Positions 2,363 to 59,900 of a stretch of DNA of 64,000 bases are shown in pieces. The position numbers were made by a program, and so were the translations under genes. The notes under the pieces are model-generated. The model searched no databases, was not told the origin of the DNA, and saw nothing but the letters and a program-made list of their open reading frames with translations. This DNA is from Toxonevra muliebris (lineage: Eukaryota; Arthropoda; Insecta; Diptera; Pallopteridae): NCBI GenBank assembly GCA_963691655.1, contig OY829328.1, forward strand, positions 11,424,704 to 11,488,703, given 5' to 3'. Position 1 is the stretch's first letter. The number at the start of each line of letters is the position of its first letter.

Positions 2363-3100
2363 GCCGAGAACACAGCTGGGTAAATTCAATTACATTACAT
2401 TCCCAATTCCAATTACAAGGAATTGTAATTGGTACTTAAATGTTTTCAATTCCCTGGTAATGGAATTGATAAAACTTTCAATTCCATTATAGGGAATTGT
2501 AACAGGTAATTAAAATTTCTAAATTCCTAGGTAATGGAATTGGAAAAATTTTCGATTCCATTACAGGGAATTGTATTTTGTAATTAAAAATGTATCAATT
2601 CCTTAAAGGAATTGAAAATGTAATTGAAAACAAAGGAATTAGTTATTTAAGTGTAATTAATTACTTTCTTGGAATTAGTTCAATTCCAAAAAAGCAAAAA
2701 CTCATTAGAAGCATTTTACAATTTTTTCCGAATTTTTTTTTTTTTTTTGTTTTGGTTTTTTGGAATTGAACTAAAAGGGAATCAATTACTTTTTAGGAAT
2801 CATTCCAACTAAATTGGAATTTAATTCCAAGTAAGTAATTGATTACACTGAAATATTAATTTCCTTTCTATTCAATTACATTTTTAATTCCTATAAGGAA
2901 TTGATATATTTTTAATTACAAAATACAATTCCCTGTAATGGTACCGATTACAATTCCTTGTTATGGAATTGAAAGTTTTATCAATTCCATTACTAAGGAA
3001 TTGAAAACATTAAAATACCAATTACAATTCCTTGTAATTGGAATGGAGATGGAATTTAATTCCTAAAGGAATCATTACTACCCAACTCTGGCCGAGAACA
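2363..3100. mobile_element. 718-bp inverted-repeat MITE with 10-bp target duplication
   Basis: The element spans 2373-3090. It is flanked by perfect 10-bp direct repeats GCCGAGAACA at 2363-2372 and 3091-3100. The left end reads CAGCTGGGTA and the right end, reverse-complemented, CAGAGTTGGGTA. The two arms (about 2373-2690 and 2760-3090) are long imperfect inverted repeats built from GGAATTGNAATT-like blocks, so the whole element can fold back on itself. There is no coding capacity. The CAG/GGGTA ends resemble hAT elements, but those make 8-bp duplications; 9-11 bp is typical of Mutator-like elements, so the superfamily is left open. Confidence 0.85.
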
Positions 3101-15660: not shown

Positions 15661-15795
15661 GCGGATCCAGAGATTTCGAAAGGGTTTTTAACTTTTTTGT
15701 CTCTTTAGGATTTTTTCATTTAATGAACTCAAAATGTATAAGATATTATGTCGCATCCCCAATTGGTACAAAAAATATTTAAAAATAATAATAAA

Positions 15796-16060
15796 TTCAA
15801 GGTTTGTTAACGGGCTTAGATGAAACATCACACCATCACAAAGATCACTGATGAGGAATTGTGGCGGGTTCCAAAACGGCCGTATGGTTTGCCTGCCCTT
15901 TATACATTGTTGCGACTTAGTCACTTTATTACTTTGATAAAAAAGAATAACGTTTCATCTAAGCTCGTTAATAAACCTTGAACTGTTAAGTATTAATGAA
16001 GTAAGTCAAACTATGGAATATGAACAACTAGATTTCAGTTTCATAGTCTCTAATAATTAT
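15796..16060 (+). mobile_element. Hammerhead-ribozyme repeat family, copy C (old, diverged)
   Basis: Homology to copies A and B is clear in two places: the ribozyme region (15842-15890) and the tail AACAACTAGATTT...TTTCATAGTCTC (16028-16055). The ribozyme region lies between nearly perfect 31-bp inverted repeats at 15796-15826 and 15952-15982 (29 of 31 matching), which the other two copies do not have in that form. The copy is too diverged for other boundaries to be set. Confidence 0.7.
15842..15890 (+). ncRNA. Hammerhead ribozyme, copy C (probably inactive)
   Basis: Elements in order: stem I strand AGATCA (15842-15847), core CTGATGA (15848-15854), stem II GGAAT (15855-15859), loop TGTGGCGG, GTTCC (15868-15872). 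Then AAAA (15873-15876), palindrome CGGCCG (15877-15882), TA (15883-15884) and stem I strand TGGTTT (15885-15890). Both stems keep pairing through G-U wobbles. The position of the invariant catalytic G12 (first base of GAAA) is A, so self-cleavage should be lost. Stem conservation despite divergence supports the assignment. Confidence 0.7.
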
Positions 16061-18904
16061 CTAAATAATAATAAATAAGTACAGTTTAGTCTGGACCGAA
16101 ATTACAGAATGCGATTCTTCTTGCTTTTTATTGATGGCTATCGCATCCTCAGCATCCCACGTAGCCAATTATTCACATACAAACGTTTGTTGCTTTCTAG
16201 TGATTTCCACGATTCGCAAAATCTAACATTTAATAAAAACCGTTTCAAATAGTTTCTAATTACATTTAAACTGATTACAAACATTTTCACCTCAAAGGCA
16301 GATGTATCGTTCAAATATTTCTCTATAAAAGAAAAAATAACAAAAACATGGAATGCTCGTGTTTGTTTTTAATTTGTTTGTTTTATTTTGTTGTTTTATT
16401 TTTTTGGATGACTTTGAACTCTACACTTAGCTAGTGCTACTTGAAAATGAAACTTTACTAAGAAAGAATGTTTCTAATAAATAATTTTGTAATGTAAATG
16501 TAAAGCAGTTTAATTTTTTGTACATTTTTTTGTATTCGTAGAGAAAGAATTGTTGACATTTTTAGCCCTTGAGCATTTGACAGCCAAAAGCCCAATGAAG
16601 CTTACTGTCAGTGCAATTCAAAAAGACAGAAACGAAAAAAAAGAAAATAGAAACACGTGGAAAAAAAGGAAAAGAAAAGTAAATTGAAGTATGAAAGTAA
16701 AAGGCAAAATGAAACACTCATACATACATATCACCACACCAGCGCCAAATATCAGGAAATCAGAGGCAAAAGTTGATGACAGGAATACAATCGCGCGTCG
16801 CTTGTCATTTGTCTTCTTTATGTTTATGTTGTCGTTTCCCCCTTCCCTCCGTACATACATCGACTCCAGTCAACCACTGGCGCTGTTGCTTTTATGTCTG
16901 TCGCCTGTTTATTTTATTGTGTATATTTGTTCTTCAGTTGAGTTGCGTTTCGAAATGGTGATTGCAGCGACCGACGACCATTTTGTAGGAGGAACTTAGA
17001 CCAGGTATGTGAGGTAGCGACCATATAAGATTCTCTCACTCCGAAGAGCTTACAATTCTCTTTCGTGCTTTTCGGATATTTGTTACTGCTTTATTATTGT
17101 TCCATAGTTTCTTTTTTTATTTACATTTGAGCCCCAGTCAACCTTATTATTTTAAGGTTCCTAGTTATTTATTTTTTTGTTTCTGTTGGAACTTCCTTTG
17201 TTTTACTCTGTGTATTTTTTGTTGGTGTAGTTCTGGTGCTGTCTGCCTTTGCAAATGTACAATATTACGCCATATTGTGTTAACCGTGCTGACAAATTTT
17301 GTCGTGTAACAGTAAATAGAATACGGATAAACTTTTGCGTCAAAAGTTTTATTACCTTCGTTTTTTTGTTGTTTTCGTTGTGCTTTTCTTTTTCTTTTTT
17401 TTTTTTGGCAGGGGTGGAGGAAGCTTGTTTTTTTCTTGCGCTATTGCGAAATTGTTTAAAAAGTGTTGTTACAAAGTTAAGTTTTCTTTTCTTTGCTGGT
17501 TGTTGTTGTCATAATGAAAGTTGCTTTGGCAGTTGGTTTCAAGTCTGTAAGTGTTGAGGCCTTGCACTTAGCCTTTAGCAAACTATGCTGAAAAAATAAG
17601 TATATTTTCATATTCATAAACTGAAATAAATGATTTTTTTAATTTCTTTTTTTTTATTCTTATTTGAGAGAAATCTCATAAATCTGCTTGTTTTTTATTA
17701 TACTTTATGTAGTTTTCAAAGTTTATGACTGTTATTTAAAATACCAGTCAATGTTTTTTGCATTTACTCTGTACAAGAGAAAAGCTTTGCAGTAGCAAAA
17801 TATTTGATTTATGGGTATTTGTTTTGTAGTTATTAACTTATTTATGAGTTTTTTCCCCCAAAAAAGTTTCCATTTAAATATTAGAATTCGTTTTACTCTA
17901 TTCCAAACTTTTCTTTTTTAAAAAAAGTTCCCCAGTGATCATTCAAAAGTTGAATTAATTTTGCTTTTCCTGGTAGTAACTCAATACATTGCTTTATAAT
18001 ATTCCTAGTAGTTATTATACACAGGAGTTTATAAAAATCAATGCATGAAGCTCTTTATTTTTGCTTTTGGAGAAAATATTCTACATCACGTTTGGCATTT
18101 TCAATTCACCGAAATTATGTAATTGCGAAGGTTTAAATTTCTTTTCTAATTGTAGTAGAACTGCAGCGAGTATGTATTCAGTTTGATGCAAAGTGTAAAA
18201 TAAGAAATTTTCTTTTTTCACGAAAATAGATTTTTTGAATCACGAAAGTGAAAGGCGAAAGCAATTGAATGAAGCAAATAGGATGGAACTGAAAAATTAT
18301 TCCAGAGTGCGCAACAAACATTTTCTTGTAAGCAACTACAAAACTAGCACTACAAGTCCTTTTCATCACAAATCTTTTTGCTAAAACTAAAACATTTGGT
18401 AAAGCTATTTTTAACAATTAACATGGAGAGATATCAAACATTCCACAACTTTCGAAAATTTTATTGGCGAAATCAGATGTATTAAATATATACGAAAATG
18501 TAAAAAACATATTTTTAAATGTAAAATGTTTTTTAAAATAAAACATTTAAATAGAAGAGTAAAACCAAAAAATGAAATAAAAATCGTTACCATTTACACA
18601 CAGAAATATTTATTTTTGGAAAGTCAACTTCATGGGCGGCAGAAGAAGGTGTGCATAATTGACCATACCAGCCAGTTTCCTCTTTCTCTTGCCCAAGAGG
18701 TCGTCTTGACAGCAAGAAATCTTTCTGAATGTAAATTGGGACTAATTAATGTGAATGATATAAATGTAAAAAAAAAAAATCAATAGCTATTGTCTAAACT
18801 TTGATAGCTTATTGCTCTGACGTCTCAGGTGATAGCACTGTCATTCTTGGACGTTTATTAGAAAATTTTTTGCTTTGTTCTATAAAGCTTTTGCGAAATA
18901 TATA
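16061..18904. other. Non-coding DNA, no gene seen
   Basis: The composition is AT-rich, with poly-T tracts (17340-17410, 17630-17660) and short open frames rich in Phe/Cys/Leu on both strands around 16618-17557. None has a start context, splice-site pattern or recognisable domain. A slightly GC-richer patch at 18610-18730 is unassigned. Confidence 0.5.
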
Positions 18905-19180: not shown

Positions 19181-19290
19181 AGATTTAAAAAATTGACATT
19201 AATTCAATAATCAATCAATTTTGCATATTTCTCCACGAAAAATCAAGTTTAATTCAAGAAATTCTTGATTCACGAAGGTACATTTTTTCT
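19104..19290 (+). repeat. Dispersed repeat, copy 2 (partner at 3425-3622)
   Basis: The reverse complement of this segment aligns with 3425-3622 over most of its length, including TTGATTTTTCGTGGAGAAAT. Since it follows the transposase relic directly, it is probably the next part of the same element. Its right edge abuts the minus-strand ribozyme repeat that starts at about 19304. Confidence 0.6.
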
Positions 19291-19303
19291 TATGTTTTTT
19301 TGT

Positions 19304-19698
19304 AGACTATGGAAATTAAATCTAGTTGTTACTTTTCAAAGTCATGAGTACTGTTCCAATGTACGCTCTTCATCAAATAATGTATAACAGGCTTAAAGAA
19401 CGTTTATGTGTAGTCATCACAACAACAGTGTATACAGAGACGGGCAAATCAGACGGCCGCTTCGGAATCCGCCACGATTCCTCATCAGTGATCTTAGTGA
19501 TAGTTCTTAATCTTTCAATATCCTATATAAGCTACTAATATTTGAAATCATAACCAAGAATTCCAGATTTGATTCCAAATATCTTCACTGAATAGAAATA
19601 TTGAAAGAAAACTACCACTACCGTTCAGTATACTTATTTGTTGTTGTGTTTTTCTCCTTACTACTAGTCTGCATAACAGTCCGTTATTTCAAACACCA
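19304..19698 (-). mobile_element. Hammerhead-ribozyme repeat family, copy B
   Basis: Read on the minus strand from about 19698 (TTTGAAATAACGGACTG) to about 19304 (CATAGTCTACAAAAAAA), this copy matches 33712-34106 at well over 90% by eye. The one clear indel is about 16 bp near 19353-19370, which copy A lacks. The 3' end is A-rich after TAGTCTAC. There is no coding frame. The ribozyme lies near the middle. High identity to A means the two inserted recently from a common source. Confidence 0.85.
19446..19494 (-). ncRNA. Hammerhead ribozyme, copy B
   Basis: On the minus strand: stem I AGATCA (19494-19489), CTGATGA (19488-19482), stem II GGAAT (19481-19477), loop CGTGGCGG, ATTCC (19468-19464). 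Then GAAG (19463-19460), palindrome CGGCCG (19459-19454), TC (19453-19452) and stem I TGATTT (19451-19446). All invariant core bases are present except that the A15.1-U16.1 pair is G-U. Predicted cleavage follows the C at 19452. Topology is type I (open at stem I), with a 2-bp stem III capped by two bases. Confidence 0.8.
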
Positions 19699-19699
19699 G

Positions 19700-20441
19700 T
19701 TTTTAGTTTTTTTTTGATGTGTAAACATTTTAGCTCACGGTATGGGCAAAATTTCAAATGTGTAAAATGTAAGAATAACTGTATCGTAAGATGTAAGATA
19801 ACTGTAACGTCCAGTTCCCCTCTTGCTCACACTACTGCGCGGCATGACTGTGCTACTCTAAACAACAAAGAGAAGAAGAGAGGGAGAAATTAAAATACGA
19901 GCGGAGTTTGTTTGTTTATGTTTCTATCAATTTACTCTCACATATATGTGCATACGAAAACAAAATGTGTGTGTACATTTATTATTTGTTGGTGTTAAAC
20001 GTGTGGAGATCGACTATACCATACAAGCAGAGAAGTCGCCGTAGCAAACACAGGCGTTTGATAGGTTTTGTATTCGGTTAGTTAGATTGCATTAAAATTA
20101 GATATTCTTTAAAATATAAAAACAATATAATAATGATAAGTAATAAGGAATCTAGGTTTAAATAAATGTATAAACAAAATGTAGTGATAATGATAGCAAA
20201 TCACGGCATTATAAAAATTTTGCTTTGTACATTAGCATTAGAAAAGCAACACTTTTTTGATCTATGTAAATAGAAAAAATCAAACTTATTTATTATAAAA
20301 TCACTTATTTACTTCAATAAAAATACATTCTTTTTATTTTTATTAAATGCAGTTAAGACAACTCTCTTTGAGGTGCTTTTAAAAAGTAGTGGGGTGACTA
20401 GTCATCCCTGTTGCCTTTCTAAGGTTAAATGCGGAAAGCAC
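19700..20441. other. Non-coding DNA, no gene seen
   Basis: AT-rich sequence with no paired termini or coding signal. Confidence 0.5.
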
Positions 20442-31600: not shown

Positions 31601-32368
31601 CGATTAGTAAACTTTAACAAACTTTGAGTAAAGCTAGACGCAGTCACATGTTCCTTTTTGGAGAACATCAAGTTGAAGCTTTTGATATGAGAGCAATAAC
31701 CGCACATCAAGACTTTAAAGAGTGATTAGAAAATTTGTTTGCCTCTTTATAAGAACTTAAAACTCAAAAAAGCCTGTATCCACTCGCCCAATTCTTTTAA
31801 TTTCATTATTGTCTACTTTCTGCATTAAAGTTTTTCATCATTTTATTTATTTTACAAACTTTATTGTACTAATTCCAATTATATTGCTAACAAACTACTA
31901 GCTAAATTATGATAAGACAATATACTTCCCAAGACGCGTGGAGAGATCAATGAAATAACACACCTACCTACCTAAGGTAAGATACTGTCATAGATTCTAC
32001 TACTAAAACTAAAGCTTTGAAAACTAATGCAGTTCAAGATGCTATTTTCAGAGAATATCTGGATTTCTTTTAGCACGAAAATTTCGTATTTGCGAAGGCA
32101 ATGAAAAATATTTTTACTTCTCCTGTTAGATCTTCAAATTAACAAATACAATGATTTGAAAAAACTTTTATTTTACCACGTTTATATCAACTCGCTTTCA
32201 GTGGTGTCTGTCTGCTTGTTCAGGTGAAATTAAGAAATCGATTTTAAACTAACTTCCTGATGAGTTTGAAACTTTAAACATAGCTCAGAACTGGATGACA
32301 ATGTGATATAAAATATCTAAAATATATATAAATATAATATAATATTAGCGTTTATTTTTTTACATACA
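28621..32368. other. Non-coding DNA; weak transposon traces
   Basis: A (GT)n tract lies at 29062-29078. At about 30385-30405 a + frame reads LYTDGSS, recalling the YTDGS start of LINE RNase H domains, but the frame breaks at once and nothing else supports it. The 30540-30620 and 31050-31200 stretches are slightly GC-richer and unassigned. No gene is seen. Confidence 0.45.
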
Positions 32369-32575
32369 CAATAATTATAGTACAACATACTTTCAGGCTA
32401 TAGTATAAATATTATTATTATGCAATAATTATAGGACAGCGTACTTTCAGGCTGGGGAATAAATATTATTATTATACAATAATTGTAGTACAGCATACTT
32501 TCAGGCTGGTGTATAAATATTATTATTATACAATAATTATAGTACAGCATACTTTCAAGTTGGTATATAAATTAG
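32369..32575 (+). repeat. 54-bp tandem repeat, about 3.8 copies
   Basis: Units beginning CAATAATTATAG start at 32369, 32423, 32477 and 32531, an exact 54-bp spacing. Each contains TACTTTCAGGCT (TTTCAAGTT in the last) and a TAAATATTATTATTAT tail. Units differ by few substitutions, so the array is young or homogenised. Confidence 0.9.
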
Positions 32576-33586
32576 AAGTACGGTGTTAACTAACAGATGG
32601 TATAGCTAATGTAAAGTTTGCGTTGAGGATAATTAATATGGCGTTTTGGAAAGTAGATATTTGTCAATAAGATTCATAGATCAAAGCATTGCATTCATCG
32701 TTCGGAAATGTGTCAGTACATAAGCAAACAACATTTTTAGTACACTTTCGTACAACTAATTCTTTTTATGTGATATTATTTCAAAGAAAATTATAACTGT
32801 GCTGCTTTTCTTATTTGGTTATTATCGATTACACAGTGCAACACGGAAAATTTACAAGGCTTGGGCCTATATAATTGTTGGATTGGTCGTAAAAAATTTC
32901 ACACACACAAGACTAAAGAGCAGAAAATAATAATTTACATAAAAAATATTTTTAAATTAATAAAATAATTTCTCCTAGCACCATAGAGATTTATAACTTC
33001 ATACAGATTCTTAACACCATACAGATTATTCTGAAAATTTGTTGTTCTGAATTTTAGTAGGTATGAAAATACTTGTATGATTTTAAACGAAAAACGTGGG
33101 ATGCATATGTGAGAAATTATTTTATACTTTTTAGGCCATTTTAAAAACGTGGTATATTAAAAATATTTTTTTATTTAAATTTTTTATTAAATTTTTTTTT
33201 AGCTTGAACAAAAACAAAACTTTTTGCTGAAATTCAACCAAATTTCCAAACAAAATCTTATTTACTATAAGACTTTAAAAGTTTTCTTTACCGAATATAT
33301 TTTCTAAGAAAACAGGTAATTCCTAAAAATGCTTAACATTTGCTCTATGATTTCACTTTTCGCTCTTATCGCAGCAGTATTGTATTCTGAAATGACGTCA
33401 TAAGAATTTTAATAATGGTATTAATGTTAATAAACAAGTAAGAAAATCACTTACGTATACACAGGGAAGGACAAAAGTCTACATACACTACCGGATTTTC
33501 AGTTTCTCTGAACCTAAGAATGTAAACGAAAAATTAGGATTGTAGTTTTAAAAAGGAAGGTTATTTATTTATAACCAAGACTTTGA

Positions 33587-33636
33587 AAAATTAACAACTA
33601 GATTTAATTTTCATAGTCTACAAAAAACATAATAAA
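33587..33636 (+). repeat. Tail fragment of the ribozyme repeat family
   Basis: ACTTTGAAAAATTAACAACTAGATTTAATTTTCATAGTCTACAAAAAACATA, read across these positions, is nearly the same as the tail of copy A (34052-34106). It lies 75 bp upstream of copy A in the same orientation. It is either a separate 5'-truncated copy, or one end of a terminal direct repeat/partial head-to-tail dimer. Confidence 0.75.
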
Positions 33637-33711
33637 TTGATTGAATGGGGCCTGATTCAGAAAAATGTCATCTAGAATCATTTTGCTAAAACACACACAC
33701 ACTCATGTACT

Positions 33712-34106
33712 AGACTTTGAAATAACGAACTGTTATGCAGACTAGTAGTAAGGAAAAAAACACAACAACAAATAAGTATACAGAACGGTAGTGATAGTTT
33801 TCTTTCAATATTTCTATTCAGTGAAGATATTTGGAATCAAATCTGGAGTTCTTGGTTATGATTTCAAATATTACTAGCTTATATAGGATATTGAAAGATT
33901 AAGAACTATCACTAAAATCACTGATGAGGAATAGTGGCGGATTCCGAAGCGGCCGTCTGATTTGCCCGTCTCTGTATATACTGTTGTTGTGATGACTACA
34001 CATACACGTTCTTTAAGCCTGTTACACATTATTTAATGGAACAATATTCATGACTTTGAAAAGTAACAAGTAGATTTAATTTCCATAGTCTACAAAAAAA
34101 AAACAT
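33712..34106 (+). mobile_element. Hammerhead-ribozyme repeat family, copy A
   Basis: The copy starts about 33712 (ACTTTGAAATAACGAACTG) and ends in CATAGTCTAC plus an A-rich tail (34081-34106). It is non-coding, and homologous along its length to copy B on the other strand, with one about 16-bp deletion near 34034. Together with the tail fragment it lies inside the Tc1-like element, so it inserted after that element. A short outer pairing AAGAAC/GTTCTT (33901-33906 with 34008-34013) encloses the ribozyme. Confidence 0.85.
33915..33963 (+). ncRNA. Hammerhead ribozyme, copy A
   Basis: Elements in order: stem I AAATCA (33915-33920), CTGATGA (33921-33927), stem II GGAAT (33928-33932), loop AGTGGCGG, ATTCC (33941-33945). 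Then GAAG (33946-33949), palindrome CGGCCG (33950-33955), TC (33956-33957) and stem I TGATTT (33958-33963). Stem I and stem II pair without mismatches. Conserved-core bases C3-A9 and G12-A14 are intact; A15.1 is G (wobble with U16.1). Predicted cleavage is between 33957 and 33958. Such short palindromic stem III forms are known to act well as dimers (newt satellite 2 type). Confidence 0.85.
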
Positions 34107-34128
34107 AAAAAAAATATACTTCAATTGA

Positions 34129-53490: not shown

Positions 53491-54103
53491 TATATTCTAC
53501 ATTCAGGCATAGAGCAAAATAAAACTGCTGATCTTTTGGCTAAAAAAGGTTCAGCAGCCGAATTTTGTGGACTTGAACCATGCATCGCCATTGGTGATGG
53601 ATTGGTGGAAGGCCTGATAAGACAGTGGATAAATCTGAACATTGTAAAAGATGGAAAGAGGCCACTGACTGCAGGCAGGCAAAGACGGTCGTGAAGTGGT
53701 TGCGCCGTGAGTCAGCCAAAGTCGTCGGACTAAATCGGATGACCTTGAGCTGGCTAACAGCGTTGACTACGGGTCGCGGTCAGTTCCGGTATCACCTCAA
53801 GAACATGAAACTTGTTGAGGATGATACCTGTAGGTTGTGTCTGGAGGAGCTGGAAATGGCGGCGCACTCACTGTGCCAATGTCCAGCGTTGGCGAGCAGA
53901 AGGTTGGCAATCTTGGGTCATCGATACGTAGATGAATCTGAGATTGGCCACCTGGCCTATAAGGATATGCTCGCGTTGACGCAGGATGCCAATACTCGCA
54001 GCTTGCTTGTTTATGAGTGCTTAGAGTAGAGGCATCAGGCGGTAGGGGACGAAAAGGGTCTGATTCGGCTAATCTCCGAACTAATAATAATAATTATATT
54101 CTA
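53491..54103 (+). mobile_element. 5'-truncated LINE 3' end (RNase H + CCHC)
   Basis: The body spans 53500-54094, flanked by 9-bp direct repeats TATATTCTA (53491-53499 and 54095-54103). It opens inside an RNase H domain at HSGIEQNKTADLLAKKGS (from 53500) and shifts frame between about 53625 and 53660. It then continues as CRQAKTVVKWLRR, RYHLKNMKLVEDDTCRLCLE and AHSLCQC to a stop at 54027-54029. CRLC...H...C is the C-terminal zinc knuckle. A short 3' UTR ends in (TAA)n (about 54083-54093). RNase H, CCHC and the TAA tail fit the I/R1/Loa group. One frameshift makes it dead, though it is otherwise well preserved. Confidence 0.85.
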
Positions 54104-54363: not shown

Positions 54364-54789
54364 CAACAAAATTGAAATTCGGACAACCATACCCTCTTCA
54401 TATCTGCTAAATAGATTTATGCACAATCCCAAGCCCACAAAGATGTAAAATTATAAGATACCAAACCAACAATAATCAAAAGTAGCATAATAATCCAAAT
54501 GATGCGAAATGATGAGTTTAGGAGATGAAACAGATGAAACCACAGAAACAAATGCAATTAAATTACTATTGCCATTATCATTGGAACAATTATGTGCATC
54601 ATTAAAGAAAGTGCGCATTAAGAATAAAAGGTAGTAAATTGAGTACTGAATGAAGTGAACTAATGACATCAGTTTCAATCAAATCACAGCAAATCGACAC
54701 AAACCGGAAACCAAACCAATATCAATCCAAACCAAACCAAACCAACTTATCAGGAAATACCAAACGTTAATACGTTAATATATCACAAA
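54364..54789 (+). other. Probable 5' UTR of the large exon
   Basis: 426 nt between the candidate acceptor and the start codon, with CAAACC-rich, relatively T-poor sequence near the 3' end (54690-54760). Several short upstream ATGs occur, including an ATG-TAA minimal upstream frame near 54443, which would be expected to reduce initiation at the main ATG if transcribed. Confidence 0.45.
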
Positions 54790-56939
54790 ATGCTGGCTAA
54801 CATATTACTTATGCTGGCCATGCTAATACTAATACAAACAAATTATAATCAAGTTTTCAATGCAACGTCCGCATCAGCAGTAGCAGCGGCAGCAGCAGCA
54901 AAATCAAATGACAAACCCACAGATACATTTTACATACGACATGGACGATCAAAGGTGCGACACTCAAATGAAAAGGAGCAAATATTGCGTAGTTTGCTTG
55001 CAGCTACTAACACGAATATAACGCATGATACAGCAGCAGTTGGTATGAGTTATGATAATGAGCTTAGTAGTGCGACAGTAATTGGCAGAGGTAATTCTAC
55101 TCCACGTAGATTGAGTAGTATGATGGTGTCAAGCAGCAGTAGCAGCATAATACCCAGCGGCAACGGGCATTTATTTGGCAGTGAATATTGGCAGAATTCA
55201 GATGCAAATGGTACGATGATTGCAAATCATCATGTTCCAACACCACCACCACCACCACCCCCAGCAGCACCTATTGCCAAACCACATTTGCTAGGATCAG
55301 CAGCAGCTTCAGTAGCAACATCAGCATTGTCATCATCGCCAGCAGCAGTAGCAGGTGACTTAAGTTATCATCGCAGTAAAACCATACCACCCCCTACATT
55401 GGCACCTGATTCTGTTACCGCTTTGGTTCCGGTAACGCATAAAATTCGGAAATTGCATATGAAGAAAATAATGGAGAGAATACGCAATCGTGTGGACAAG
55501 CGACTGGGTATTACAAAAGTTTCGAAAAATCATCGTAGTTTAGTTGAAGCTGAACATATGCAAGGCAGACCAACAGATGTAAATGAAGATGATGATGACG
55601 ATGATGAAAACGACGATTTGATGATGGGTGGTGAGTTGAATGAGGTTATGCAAATGGCAGATGAATTGGATTTAGCGGATAACAACAAAAATATCAACCA
55701 CAACAATGACAATTCATTTGCGGACGACGCATATCAAAATGATGAAGAATATGTAATGACAACGACATCAACAGCATCTAGCATAACATTAAAGCAGCAA
55801 CAGCAGCAGAATGAGTTGACATATATTGGAACATTTGCACCAGCACCCGATGATGATGGCGATGTTGAAGCAGACTTTCATTTGAATGAAATCAATGAAG
55901 TGACCACAGTGCAACCTGAGGACCCATACGCAGGCAGTAGCGAAGTCAGAAAAAAAGCGTACAATGAGTTGACAAATCTCACGCCTCCACCCAAAAATTA
56001 TGCCACATCAACAATTTTGCATAAGCTTCCAATGCAAAAATTAAGAAAATGGCGCATGAATAAACCAACGTTGCTAAGATTAGATGAATCTAATGAAACC
56101 GATTACTCATTCAGCAAACATTTCGATGCATTAAATACAGCAGAAGATGATGATGAATTACAGAGCGATGCTGCTAATGAGGCGACACCACCAGACACGT
56201 ATGAGTTCGATAGTGTTCAAGATATGAGTGAATTGATGTCAATGGAAAATAACAATAACTCTAGAACAGCAACTACAGAAGAGCAACAGCAGCAGTTGGG
56301 TATTGGCAATGGTAAAAGGCATTCACCAATACGCTTGGCACATATGGATAACAATGAAGTGGTTTACTCTTCGGAAGCGCCCACATTGCGTACCACCGAT
56401 TACATTAACTTATCTGAAACACATTCCCTTGGACCTAGTCAAGCGCTTGCTAGTACCAGCGTTGGTGGCATTGCTATGGATCGGCAGCAAGCGTTGGATA
56501 TTGAAGAGATAAATTTTGATGATGTTGGCCTTTCGGAAAACTTTGAAGATGGCACCATGGATGATGGTCATATGATTGATAACCATAATGCAAATGGTTT
56601 TCCTTTAAGTACAGGCGATGGCTCGGATAGTGGTGGCGGCGATGATGAGTCTGAAGGATATGAAACAAATCGTTACCTGGCGGGTGTTGTTGATGCTGCC
56701 AATGAAGATGAAATCTACGATTGGGATGAAATATCACGAAATAATCGTCGAAATTTAATGCGTGGTCGCGATGTCGTCACAAAATTTCTACAAATTGTTG
56801 AGACACAACATTCACTCGGTTCGAACTGTGAAGCGGGCACATCGTTAAACCTCGGTGAGGGTGTGGTGGATCGTTATGCACAGGATCGTTTTCGTGTCGA
56901 GGCAGAGGTGGCGGTCAACCGTGCCAATATGCTGACGAG
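54790..56939 (+). CDS. First coding exon of a secreted/membrane protein, possibly a GPR158-like receptor
   Basis: The exon opens at ATG 54790 in the context CACAAAATG, a good fly start, and stays open for 717 codons. It ends at the donor CGAG|GTAAGT, so the last coding base is 56939 (phase 2) and the apparent stop at 56941 is intronic. Residues 1-24 form a signal peptide-like stretch (MLANILLMLAMLILIQTNYN). Then follow an Ala run (about 30-37), a Pro run (about 151-158), a basic helix (KIRKLHMKKIMERIRNRVDK, about 217-236), an Asp run (about 266-274), Gln runs (about 335-339, 498) and many Asn/Asp/Ser stretches: mostly disordered and acidic. There is one Cys (residue 680). The last 70 residues (RGRDVVTKFLQIVE...DRYAQDRFRVEAEVAVNRAN) look conserved. 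NC..G followed by a helix with A..AVNRANMLTR recalls the ectodomain start of class C orphan receptors such as GPR158/179 and their fly relatives; this is recall, not a search. The rest lies beyond the window. Confidence 0.8.
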
Positions 56940-59900
56940 GTAAGTTATTATTGGAAATATTTTACAGTAAGAAAAATAAAAACAAAGAAAAACAAACAAA
57001 GAATGAAAATCGATTTAAGTATTTATGAAAATAGATTTTTTTCTCTTAAAATACTTTTTATTAATCTAGTTTTCAATATTACCTTTTAAGTTTTCAACAA
57101 ACTTATTCTTTGAATTCTTTCGGAAACGTAATACGCACATATATTTTATTTCCTTGCCTTGACAATAATTTAACTGAAATTTCATTACATTAAGTTTCAT
57201 TCTTGTTTAAAAACCCATGAAATTAATGTACCTTGTTAAGGAAAAGCAGAACAAAACTACATCAACAACAACAACAAAATAATAATAATAATAAAAATAA
57301 TAATCTAAGCCAAGACAAACTTTCTACCCCCATCTCCAATGCAATGACTCGATATCAAATCGAAAAAATTGAACCACTCCTAGTCAGTTTTGCCTTCAGT
57401 TTCAGTATCAGTGCCAATACATTTCTTGCAGAATTGTATGCTTGTGTTGATAAAAGTTCGATTACTTTTCTTCAAATAAATAATAAAGAGAAAGAAGAAG
57501 GAAGAAAAATACTTTGATGAGTCCTTCTACTGCTACTATTGTGTATACATACGAACATATGTATGTACGAGCATATATGTATTTGTGTATATGTCCAATG
57601 TGTACTAATATCCAAAAGATTTTTCCAACATTTGACATTTCAAGGGTATTCGATTCAATACGAAATCATGTCATGTTAAACCAAACACAGAAAAAAGTGT
57701 TGTACTGTAGTTGATAGTAGCTAGTTGTATCAAAAACGGATGCGGTATACTCGTAACTACTTATACCTTTGTGTATGAATGTATCCAATATATATATATG
57801 TATATATATATACATATGTAAGAATAGCTGATTTATGTATATAAGTAAGTGTGCGTCTTGTGTGTCTGTGTGTATATGTGTGTTTACAAAAGTTTTGATT
57901 TCATTTTGGTTTGCTAAAATAACAACTTTTGCTATTTGGAGACATTTTGAGGTAGAATTTAGTATTTCACTACTCTTTCTACTCTTTTGGTTGTTTCTCC
58001 TACCCACCAAATATACTGAATAGACGAAAGTTTATTTTTGGGTGTGGTTTTGGTTAAAGAATTGTATGCATGCGTTGTTGTTGTTTTGTTTGTTGCTATT
58101 CTCTAAAAACCAAACGATTGAGTAATCGAAGTACCGCATTACCGATAACATTGTCAGTTATTTTTTTTTTATTTATTTTTTTTTTTTTTTTGTTAAAGTA
58201 TTAGATTTATTGTATTTTAGTAAATGCAGAGTACAGTAAAAGACATCGCTTAAATTCCACATAAAATATGCAGCGGGAGATTTGGTAGCAAAAGCATGAT
58301 ATTCATAGAAGAAGTAGGAAGGGAAACATCGGCAACAACAGCAGTACGAAAGTAATTTTTTGTGTAATTCCATGTCTATATATAAATAGCAAAAGCTTAA
58401 ATACGCAAATGTCCCCGAGTAACTGTGACAATAAACATTTTATTTATGTATATGTATGTATGTGTTGCTTACTTTTTATATATTCACCATATTTACCGAA
58501 AAGTTTATTTTACTTTACGACCATTTGGTATACTTACCTACATAAGTTCATTCATTTTTGCTCTGCTATAACTTTTAATGCCAGCAATATCATTAAAGTA
58601 GGTAGATAAATATAGTCAAAACTTAAATGCTATAAAAGTAAATTCTTAAGTTTATACGTACATATATAGCAAACCCAAAGGGAGGGAGAGTTTTGGAAAT
58701 ACCCATATAGTGCAACTTGATTATTGTGAGGGCATTAAAACTATTGGTTTTTTAAAGAATGCTTGTTTTTCCCGGGAATCGTAAAATTTACGTTAGGCAC
58801 CTCATACATCATTTGTATATAACTCGTGAGCTCTGACTACGATGACATACTCAGGTTTTTGAGATATTTACAATTGAAAATTTTAGAAAGTTCTAACCAA
58901 TTAATATTTACAGCAGCATTTTAGAAAAAGGTTACGGCAGTAGCTATTTCTACTTAAGGTAACCTATTTTATGAGTTAAATGTTTTTAGCACATTTTGAA
59001 CCTGGACTTAATTAGGTCCATCTTGAGTTTAAACATGTATATCTTTTTTGTTTCTTGACGAATCGATCTGAAACTCCATGACTTCTTGTTTTCTGAGCAC
59101 AAAATTTGTTTCAATCGGAATAAGTTGACATAACAACTTTTTTTTATTGTCTCAACCTCTAAAGTTACCCCCTGTTCCTAAAAAAGCCCAGGTGTTTATT
59201 TTGTGTATTGTTAAATTAGTAACAAATTATTTTGAATTTGAGGTTTATTCAAATGCAAAATATAATTTTGGGGTTTAAGGAAAATATATATATAAAAAAA
59301 AGATATATGTATGTATGCGTAAATACATACACACACATACATACAAATTATTGCCACATCTATGTGTTTTGCTTATGTAATTATAAACCGTTTGTCTGAT
59401 CTCAGTCAAATTTGGTGTTGAGATGCATTTGTATATATGTCAAGTTGTGGGCTATAAAATGTGACCGTATCTCAAAGTGGGTGTGGCTTTTTGCAAAAAT
59501 CCAATATCTTCGAATATCATATCAAGCTAAAGTAATAAAATTGTGATCCGCTGGTGAACAATGAAATATATAAAAAATCATCTCTTTGAATCATTTTAAG
59601 CAATTTCTGAATTAAAATTTATAAGTCGGAATGGAACAAACTGATTCTTAAAAATATTTTTCATATTGAATTTAACTAAAAATTACTTAATAGTTCCAAA
59701 TTGGTATTACACTAAGAAACGTTATTAATTTCAATTAATATTTTAATAAAAAAAAATATTTTTGGATTTTAAAATGCAAAATTTTAAACTCAAATTAAAA
59801 AAAAAATTTCAAGTTTATTTAAACTTTGAACTTAAATTCCACAAAAACTCTCTAAACAAAGGGTCAATCCGAATTACCTCCAACCATCACCTATTTTATC

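Follow-up and report, generated by a model that had tools for sequence, protein, structure and literature searches.

Does a fly genome hold a small retroposon with a self-cutting ribozyme of its own? The question is raised by two repeats, copies A and B, that lie in opposite orientation in a 64,000-nucleotide stretch of Toxonevra muliebris DNA (the window). A first-pass annotation had read in both of them the segments of a hammerhead ribozyme in the right order, and had proposed a small non-coding retroposon. The core of a type I hammerhead consists of CUGANGA, GAA, the A15.1-U16.1 pair and H17. Type I hammerheads are found on non-autonomous repeats, dispersed or tandem, such as the SINE-like Sm-alpha of Schistosoma and the newt satellite, and those of the amphibian type perform better when dimeric.

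Every segment named in the annotation could be located in both A and B (Table 1), which are 92% identical over 419 aligned bases. The extent it gave for copy A, 33712-34106, is part of the element. Counting in the upstream duplicate of its 3' 60 bases, together with a 75-bp spacer, takes the true span to about 33574-34112. A relaxed hammerhead descriptor (6-bp stem I, 5-bp stem II, GAA, A or G at 15.1, U16.1-H17) picks out A and B alone within the window and has no match in 7910 windows resampled by a Markov procedure. When A is demanded at 15.1, nothing matches in the window or in the Markov resamples, A and B dropping out because both carry GAAG.

Table 1. Copies of the element in the window and the parts of copy A. 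Positions are those of the window.
Feature	Position	Strand	Remarks
Copy A	33574..34112	+	Ends approximate; R1, spacer, main body and R2; more than one unit of 486 bp
R1 of copy A	33576-33636	+	Partial direct upstream copy of the element's 3' end; pLTR-like partial tandem
Spacer of copy A	up to 33711	+	75 bp between R1 and main body
R2 of copy A	34049-34109	+	After main body
Outer stem, 5' strand	33761..33788	+	Beyond stem I; from fold and covariation with C family
P2, long imperfect hairpin	33789..33914	+	Branches between outer stem and stem I; from fold and covariation
Hammerhead of copy A	33915..33963	+	Predicted cut after 33957; GAAG replaces GAAA
Stem I, 5' strand AAATCA	33915-33920	+	
CTGATGA	33921-33927	+	
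Stem II, GGAAT	33928-33932	+	
Stem II loop	33933-33940	+	
Stem II, partner ATTCC	33941-33945	+	
GAAG	33946-33949	+	
Stem III, CGGCCG	33950-33955	+	
TC	33956-33957	+	
Stem I, 3' strand TGATTT	33958-33963	+	
Outer stem, 3' strand	33965..33991	+	From fold and covariation with C family
Copy B	19283..19700	-	Ends approximate; 5'-truncated at unit phase 79; stops at R 3' end
Hammerhead of copy B	19446..19494	-	GAAG
Copy C	15796..16053	+	Different subfamily from A and B; ends approximate; core 15832-15912
Hammerhead remnant of copy C	15842..15890	+	G12 to A; cleavage triplet GUA

In the alignment A1 described below, GAAA stands in every one of the 34 A-family rows. Because A and B have GAAG in its place they are not textbook ribozymes. 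That both share the GAAG raises the question of common descent or gene conversion across 14 kb. Copy C has AAAA where GAAA is expected. To judge by their letters, all three copies are probably poor or inactive as ribozymes. The window by itself offers two or three decayed copies; the copies elsewhere in the genome decide the case.

Those copies are dispersed and number in the thousands. The textbook core CTGATGAG(N)CGAAAC(N)GTC has 2927 matches (1436 + 1491) in the 491-Mb assembly, while the control, the same pattern read backwards, has 2 + 0. Exact patterns had no match in the viral contigs or prokaryote genome contigs scanned. As genome queries, copy A returned 2389 candidates and copy C 1228, and the best 40 of each were scored; because the searches score the best candidates only, the families are sampled from their most similar copies. 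The A-type alignment comprises 40 sequences (38 fetched, with A and B) and the C-type alignment 30. Pairing was assessed on two selections. Alignment A1 (50 rows) has 34 of the 38 fetched A-family and 16 of the 30 C-family loci, partial, gappy and duplicate ones being dropped; alignment A2 has 43 of 82 hammerhead rows, hand-picked against redundancy, together with window copies A and B.

What have these copies in common? The A consensus reads AGATCA-CTGATGA-GGAAT-CGTGGCGG-ATTCC-GAAA-CGGCCG-TC-TGATTT. Over the hammerhead it agrees with the C consensus at 47 of 49 positions, as against 19-39 of 49 in eight neighbouring 49-nt blocks. The two differences in C, U-A to U-G in stem II and C to A at H17, are both tolerated. 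A third subfamily, T3, represented by six loci plus a fragment in locus L009, has GGAACC..GGTTCC, CGATCG and TGATCT, so that stem II, the palindromic stem III and a stem I wobble are altered consistently. The type I core letters (CTGATGA, GAA, A15.1-U16.1, H17) are present in all three consensuses; single copies decay, the catalytic base G12 being A in 4 of the 32 rows of the C list. The predicted hammerhead of the A, C and T3 families has three helices round the core. The minimal palindromic stem III that the annotation had noticed is present as CGGCCG, although in a monomer it comes down to 2 bp and a 4-base palindromic loop.

Across the 45 hammerheads of A2, 95.9% of the pair cells are standard, compared with 20-56% when the partners are slid, and 12 cells show two-sided changes, compared with 2.4 after shuffling. 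These changes fall on stem II position 5 and on the inner stem III pair (CGGCCG to CGATCG). Compensatory changes are found in stems II and III across subfamilies, yet the count of pairs with a two-sided change (2) is not above shuffles, of which 206 of 500 reach 2, because few events underlie the changed cells. The conserved RNA shape is, on this comparison of copies, very probably a self-cutting hammerhead ribozyme.

The Rfam hammerhead models, the first check that the annotation had proposed and a matter of recognition more than of definition, failed to recognise the element, including copies whose core is perfect. At E<=10 they gave no match in copy A, 20 relatives and 7 further loci, and at the gathering threshold none in the window or in array L114, which suggests that these models can miss an abundant family. 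RNAalifold, run on the 50-row alignment A1, did not choose the hammerhead and gave another weak structure instead. Taken by itself, the 71-nt core of copy A folds no more stably than its shuffles (z = 0.36), a fold constrained to the hammerhead lies about 5 kcal/mol above the minimum free energy, and the pair probability of stem I is 0.21 in A and 0.04 in C. A young unit folded as a circle has z = -8.1.

Around the hammerhead lies a larger predicted structure. In the fold of copy A, stem I opens into a three-way junction with the outer stem and P2. In the 50 copies of A1, 90.3% of the cells in these surrounding arms are paired versus 36-44% when slid, and 74 cells are two-sided versus 27.6 in shuffles; the number of two-sided pairs, 12, is not above shuffles (53 of 500 reach 12). 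Between the A and C consensuses the arms show five double compensatory pairs. The C consensus breaks 13 of the 86 pairs predicted for the A structure and has a gap at 8 others. In T3 the fold gives this junction again, from an outer stem whose letters differ.

The unit is about 486 bp long (483-487). A young unit has a GC fraction of 0.337, and in two young units joined together the longest open stretch is 52 aa; the early statement that it has no ORF is borne out. Ends and target-site duplications (TSDs) were studied in 55 distinct A-type copies (loci L001-L046 and L077-L106, duplicates removed). Placed on a circular 486-bp unit, these copies run from less than one to slightly more than one unit and are opened at varied points. 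Their 3' ends cluster at two phases, 475-12 in 30 copies and 395-406 in 23, with two elsewhere. The 5' ends vary; 54 of the 55 fall 0-280 nt downstream of the predicted cut, in a sample in which shorter copies could hardly appear. The boundaries shift with the scoring used: the start of L090 falls at phase 409 or, with looser scoring, at 235.

Counting only words with at least three different letters, we found TSDs of at least 10 bp (10-13 bp) at 7 of the 55 copies, against 0.07 expected from mismatched flanks, and of at least 8 bp at 11, against 1.48. Because TSDs flank its copies, we take the A family to move through RNA. The C family showed no clear excess of TSDs of at least 8 bp in 27 of its 30 loci (L065-L067 were left out as duplicates): 0 of 27 against 1.12 expected with the first boundaries, and 3 of 27 against 1.42 with wider ones, the ends being ill-defined. 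By eye, copy C has a candidate 14-bp direct repeat (15783-15796 and 16063-16076), weak as a TSD because it is A/T-only and such words recur by chance.

The element also occurs as homogeneous head-to-tail arrays beside its partial-tandem single copies. By eye, 31 of the 100 core sites listed sit in nine such arrays with a period of 483-487. Four arrays that we fetched have constant periods of 486, 484, 485 and 486 and about 3-5 units. From one unit to the next, identity is 99.55-99.83% (3-5 mismatches per array over all comparisons), and between the four arrays it is 97.1-99.8%.

Might these arrays be ordinary satellite-type amplification by unequal crossing-over, in which circular RNA plays no part? 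Homogeneous arrays of some 3-5 units can come from crossing-over, and at the three arrays with both flanks readable no end word longer than 6 bp is shared and no TSD was found (the 5' side of L115 is N). Against this, three of the four fetched arrays have one common 3' end point, and the single copies start and stop at varied points of a circularly permuted unit. We regard amplification of this kind as possible, though on the doubtful side.

A second explanation retains the retroposon and does away with the cleavage: a SINE-like element mobilised by a LINE, whose hammerhead shape is kept for recognition by reverse transcriptase (RT) or for its fold and does not cut in vivo. Preferred 3' ends, variable 5' ends and TSDs would all fit, as would the fact that the strongest predicted folding is the P2 hairpin with the outer stem and not the hammerhead. 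Moreover, in PAc, one of the Penelope-like elements (PLEs), cleavage was dispensable for insertion in vitro, as stated in an excerpt of PMC11167929. Against it stand the unpaired catalytic letters (CTGATGA, GAA, H17) kept in all three subfamily consensuses, and head-to-tail arrays are what a cutting ribozyme would be expected to leave. A SINE with a Pol III promoter was rejected for want of a B box: A-box-like sites occur, but no B-box-like site with at most one mismatch was found in the A unit, the young unit or T3. We consider a non-cutting element of this sort unlikely.

A DNA transposon was weighed as well. DINE-1/mini-me-like Helitrons (HINEs) such as Helitron3_Cv of Calliphora move by rolling circle and make no TSD, and the hammerhead look would be a chance property of a conserved core of about 90 bp. 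In excerpts of the published descriptions the Helitron3_Cv consensus is 395/396 bp, and DINE-1/mini-me elements are described without target-site modification (PMC3630058, PMC2374699, PMC4067079). Our element resembles them in size and anatomy, in its fly abundance, in being non-coding, in a possible hairpin near the 3' end and in a GTCT/TATA stretch by the conserved core; a Drosophila DINE-1 core looks alignable with it by eye. (A DINE-1 string had no match in the viral contigs scanned.) It differs in its TSDs and RNA-type ends, in its partial-tandem copies and homogeneous arrays, and in a core that is a complete hammerhead in three subfamilies. The movement through RNA excludes a Helitron for the A family, and the genome consensus together with the TSDs removed this reading from the leading place it had held. 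We now think it very improbable.

The 5' end of copy C has a bearing here. It is a 31-bp inverted piece of the copy's own sequence (15796-15826 against 15952-15982), and such an inverted repeat resembles Helitron subTIRs. In the listed relatives of copy C, however, the 5' arm was not found in the expected place and could be matched to nothing but the reverse strand of the other arm, so the subTIR interpretation was dropped. An inverted start of this form is like an outcome of twin priming or template switching.

Derivation from the box C/D snoRNA SNORD24, with CTGA as box D and AAGATC as guide, is hardly credible and was set aside: the matches (copy A at E 0.04; 16 of 20 A-family relatives, best E 0.0038 in L031; array L107 at E 0.2; two of six T3 loci, at 22-24 bits) all score below gathering (best 36.9 against 41 bits), come from copies that are not independent, and explain nothing downstream of CTGA.

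How, then, are the copies best described? We conclude that they are, in all likelihood, decayed members of a non-autonomous, non-coding fly retroposon, kin of the metazoan non-LTR retrozymes, with a type I hammerhead and a PLE-like minimal helix III. The proposal of a small non-coding hammerhead retroposon has thus gained support from thousands of copies, the lack of an ORF, the TSDs and the intact consensus cores of the subfamilies. It is the putative hammerhead in the conserved RNA shape that makes the element a fly relative of retrozymes. As portrayed in excerpts of PMC7229834 and PMC7761336, metazoan retrozymes are non-coding and low in GC, carry type I hammerheads, range from single copies to tandem multimers and have TSDs longer than 4 bp; their units are reported as 150-450 bp, most invertebrate ones have a stable helix III, and insects are named among the hosts of similar repeats (PMC7229834). 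The present element is likewise non-coding and low in GC, with a type I hammerhead, single and tandem copies, units of a few hundred bp, TSDs of that kind in its A family, and an RNA predicted to be strongly self-paired. Unlike the retrozymes of those excerpts, it has a unit of 486 bp, a minimal palindromic helix III of 2 bp and a predicted hammerhead set in a three-way junction with a hairpin of about 125 nt. Retrozymes and PLE hammerheads are known; the unit length, the palindromic minimal helix III and the junction arm are what differs. Among the open-access papers listed by our searches none describes this family, judged by titles and abstract openings.

Other hammerhead repeats may be compared as well. 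The hammerheads of Schistosoma Sm-alpha and the newt satellite are named in excerpts of PMC7229834 and PMC6155905, and, likened by description, those repeats and ours are alike in having a type I hammerhead on a non-autonomous repeat. The atypical hammerheads of Diptera share with ours their location in fly genomes; they are of type III, according to an excerpt of PMC7936874, whereas ours is of type I, with helix I as the exit of its strand ends.

PLEs, too, invite comparison. Their minimal hammerheads, partial-tandem copies and internal RT starts are described in excerpts of PMC11167929 and PMC6155905, and the element is like them in its little or no helix III and its partial-tandem copies. 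The unit itself is not a PLE, because it has no ORF and so neither RT nor GIY-YIG, though a PLE may move it. PLEs and Terminons have been proposed as movers of retrozymes, and the role of minimal hammerheads in PLEs has been called a mystery (both in an excerpt of PMC7761336). In the same fly genome a GIY-YIG frame adjoins an RT at 62220467-62221644 of contig C2. From recognised motifs, we take these frames to be a GIY-YIG domain and a Penelope-type RT, and hence a PLE. The RT has 122 genome matches, which form at least three classes of identity; some of them tie in score, and several lie in frames of 827-866 aa. When three PLE families were compared with the element by the upstream region of a single copy each, no significant sequence was shared. 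We infer that PLEs are the likeliest lender of enzymes.

The preferred reading, a retrozyme-like retroposon, suggests the following mechanism. Tandem or over-length transcripts would cleave themselves after GUC (GUA in the C subfamily), leaving RNA 5' ends at TGATTTGCC. The palindromic stem III would need two paired hammerheads, either in cis (two units of one array) or in trans. Ligation could then close monomers into circles. A reverse transcriptase borrowed from elsewhere might begin at either of two sites inside such a circle or inside a multimer, and what is inserted would be a copy of about one unit or, from a multimer, an array. The pair of preferred 3' ends would be comparable with the internal RT starts and optional 3' tail of PLEs.

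A more specific version can be put forward, as a speculation that we would not expect to hold in every part. It supposes a circular-RNA retroposon in which the palindromic helix III makes cleavage the work of two ribozymes, such that arrays cut and lone copies do not; in which a hairpin on helix I replaces the loop-loop contact; and in which a Penelope-type RT starts at two fixed points and makes arrays in one step. If true, this would be a new hammerhead architecture in a fly retroposon. This one insect genome contains hammerhead elements by the thousand, young arrays that are nearly identical, and PLEs whose open frames are long. Whether a minimal palindromic helix III cuts only as a dimer, and whether PLEs move retrozymes, can therefore be tested directly in one insect.

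Several minor observations may be added. At position 106 of the reverse complement of L120, some 210 bp ahead of the reading frame of a PLE, is a hammerhead-like stretch, CTGAGGA..GACCGAAACGCGTA..GGAG; by eye, its mini stem III is the palindrome CGCG and its stem II is preceded by an additional U, and the descriptor program gave no match there. A SNORD24-like stretch, AUGAUUU...CACYAAGAUCACUGAUG, lies upstream of the hammerhead and runs into it, also in L111 and L112. Four C-family copies (L064-L067, C1:86565527-86578137) are spaced by about 4.1 kb and form a larger tandem duplication. A lone core match at C1:721059-721090 of the same assembly (G000) has a different loop and stem III (CTGATGAGGAAGCGTGTTCCGAAACGTAAGTC) and is perhaps a fourth subfamily or a decayed copy.

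Elsewhere in the window, a 54-bp tandem repeat of 3.8 copies occupies 32368-32572, and at 2401-3049 nested inverted repeats (108 + 126 bp) are accompanied by a 74-bp tandem repeat in what may be a foldback element. The ORF at 53598-54029 is presumably the C-terminal end of a non-LTR retrotransposon. The longest ORF (54667-56943, 758 aa) encodes an uncharacterised fly protein with relatives in Teleopsis, Rhagoletis, Ceratitis, Zeugodacus and Drosophila, which points to a host within Schizophora; two of its 11 matches have precomputed Pfam domains.
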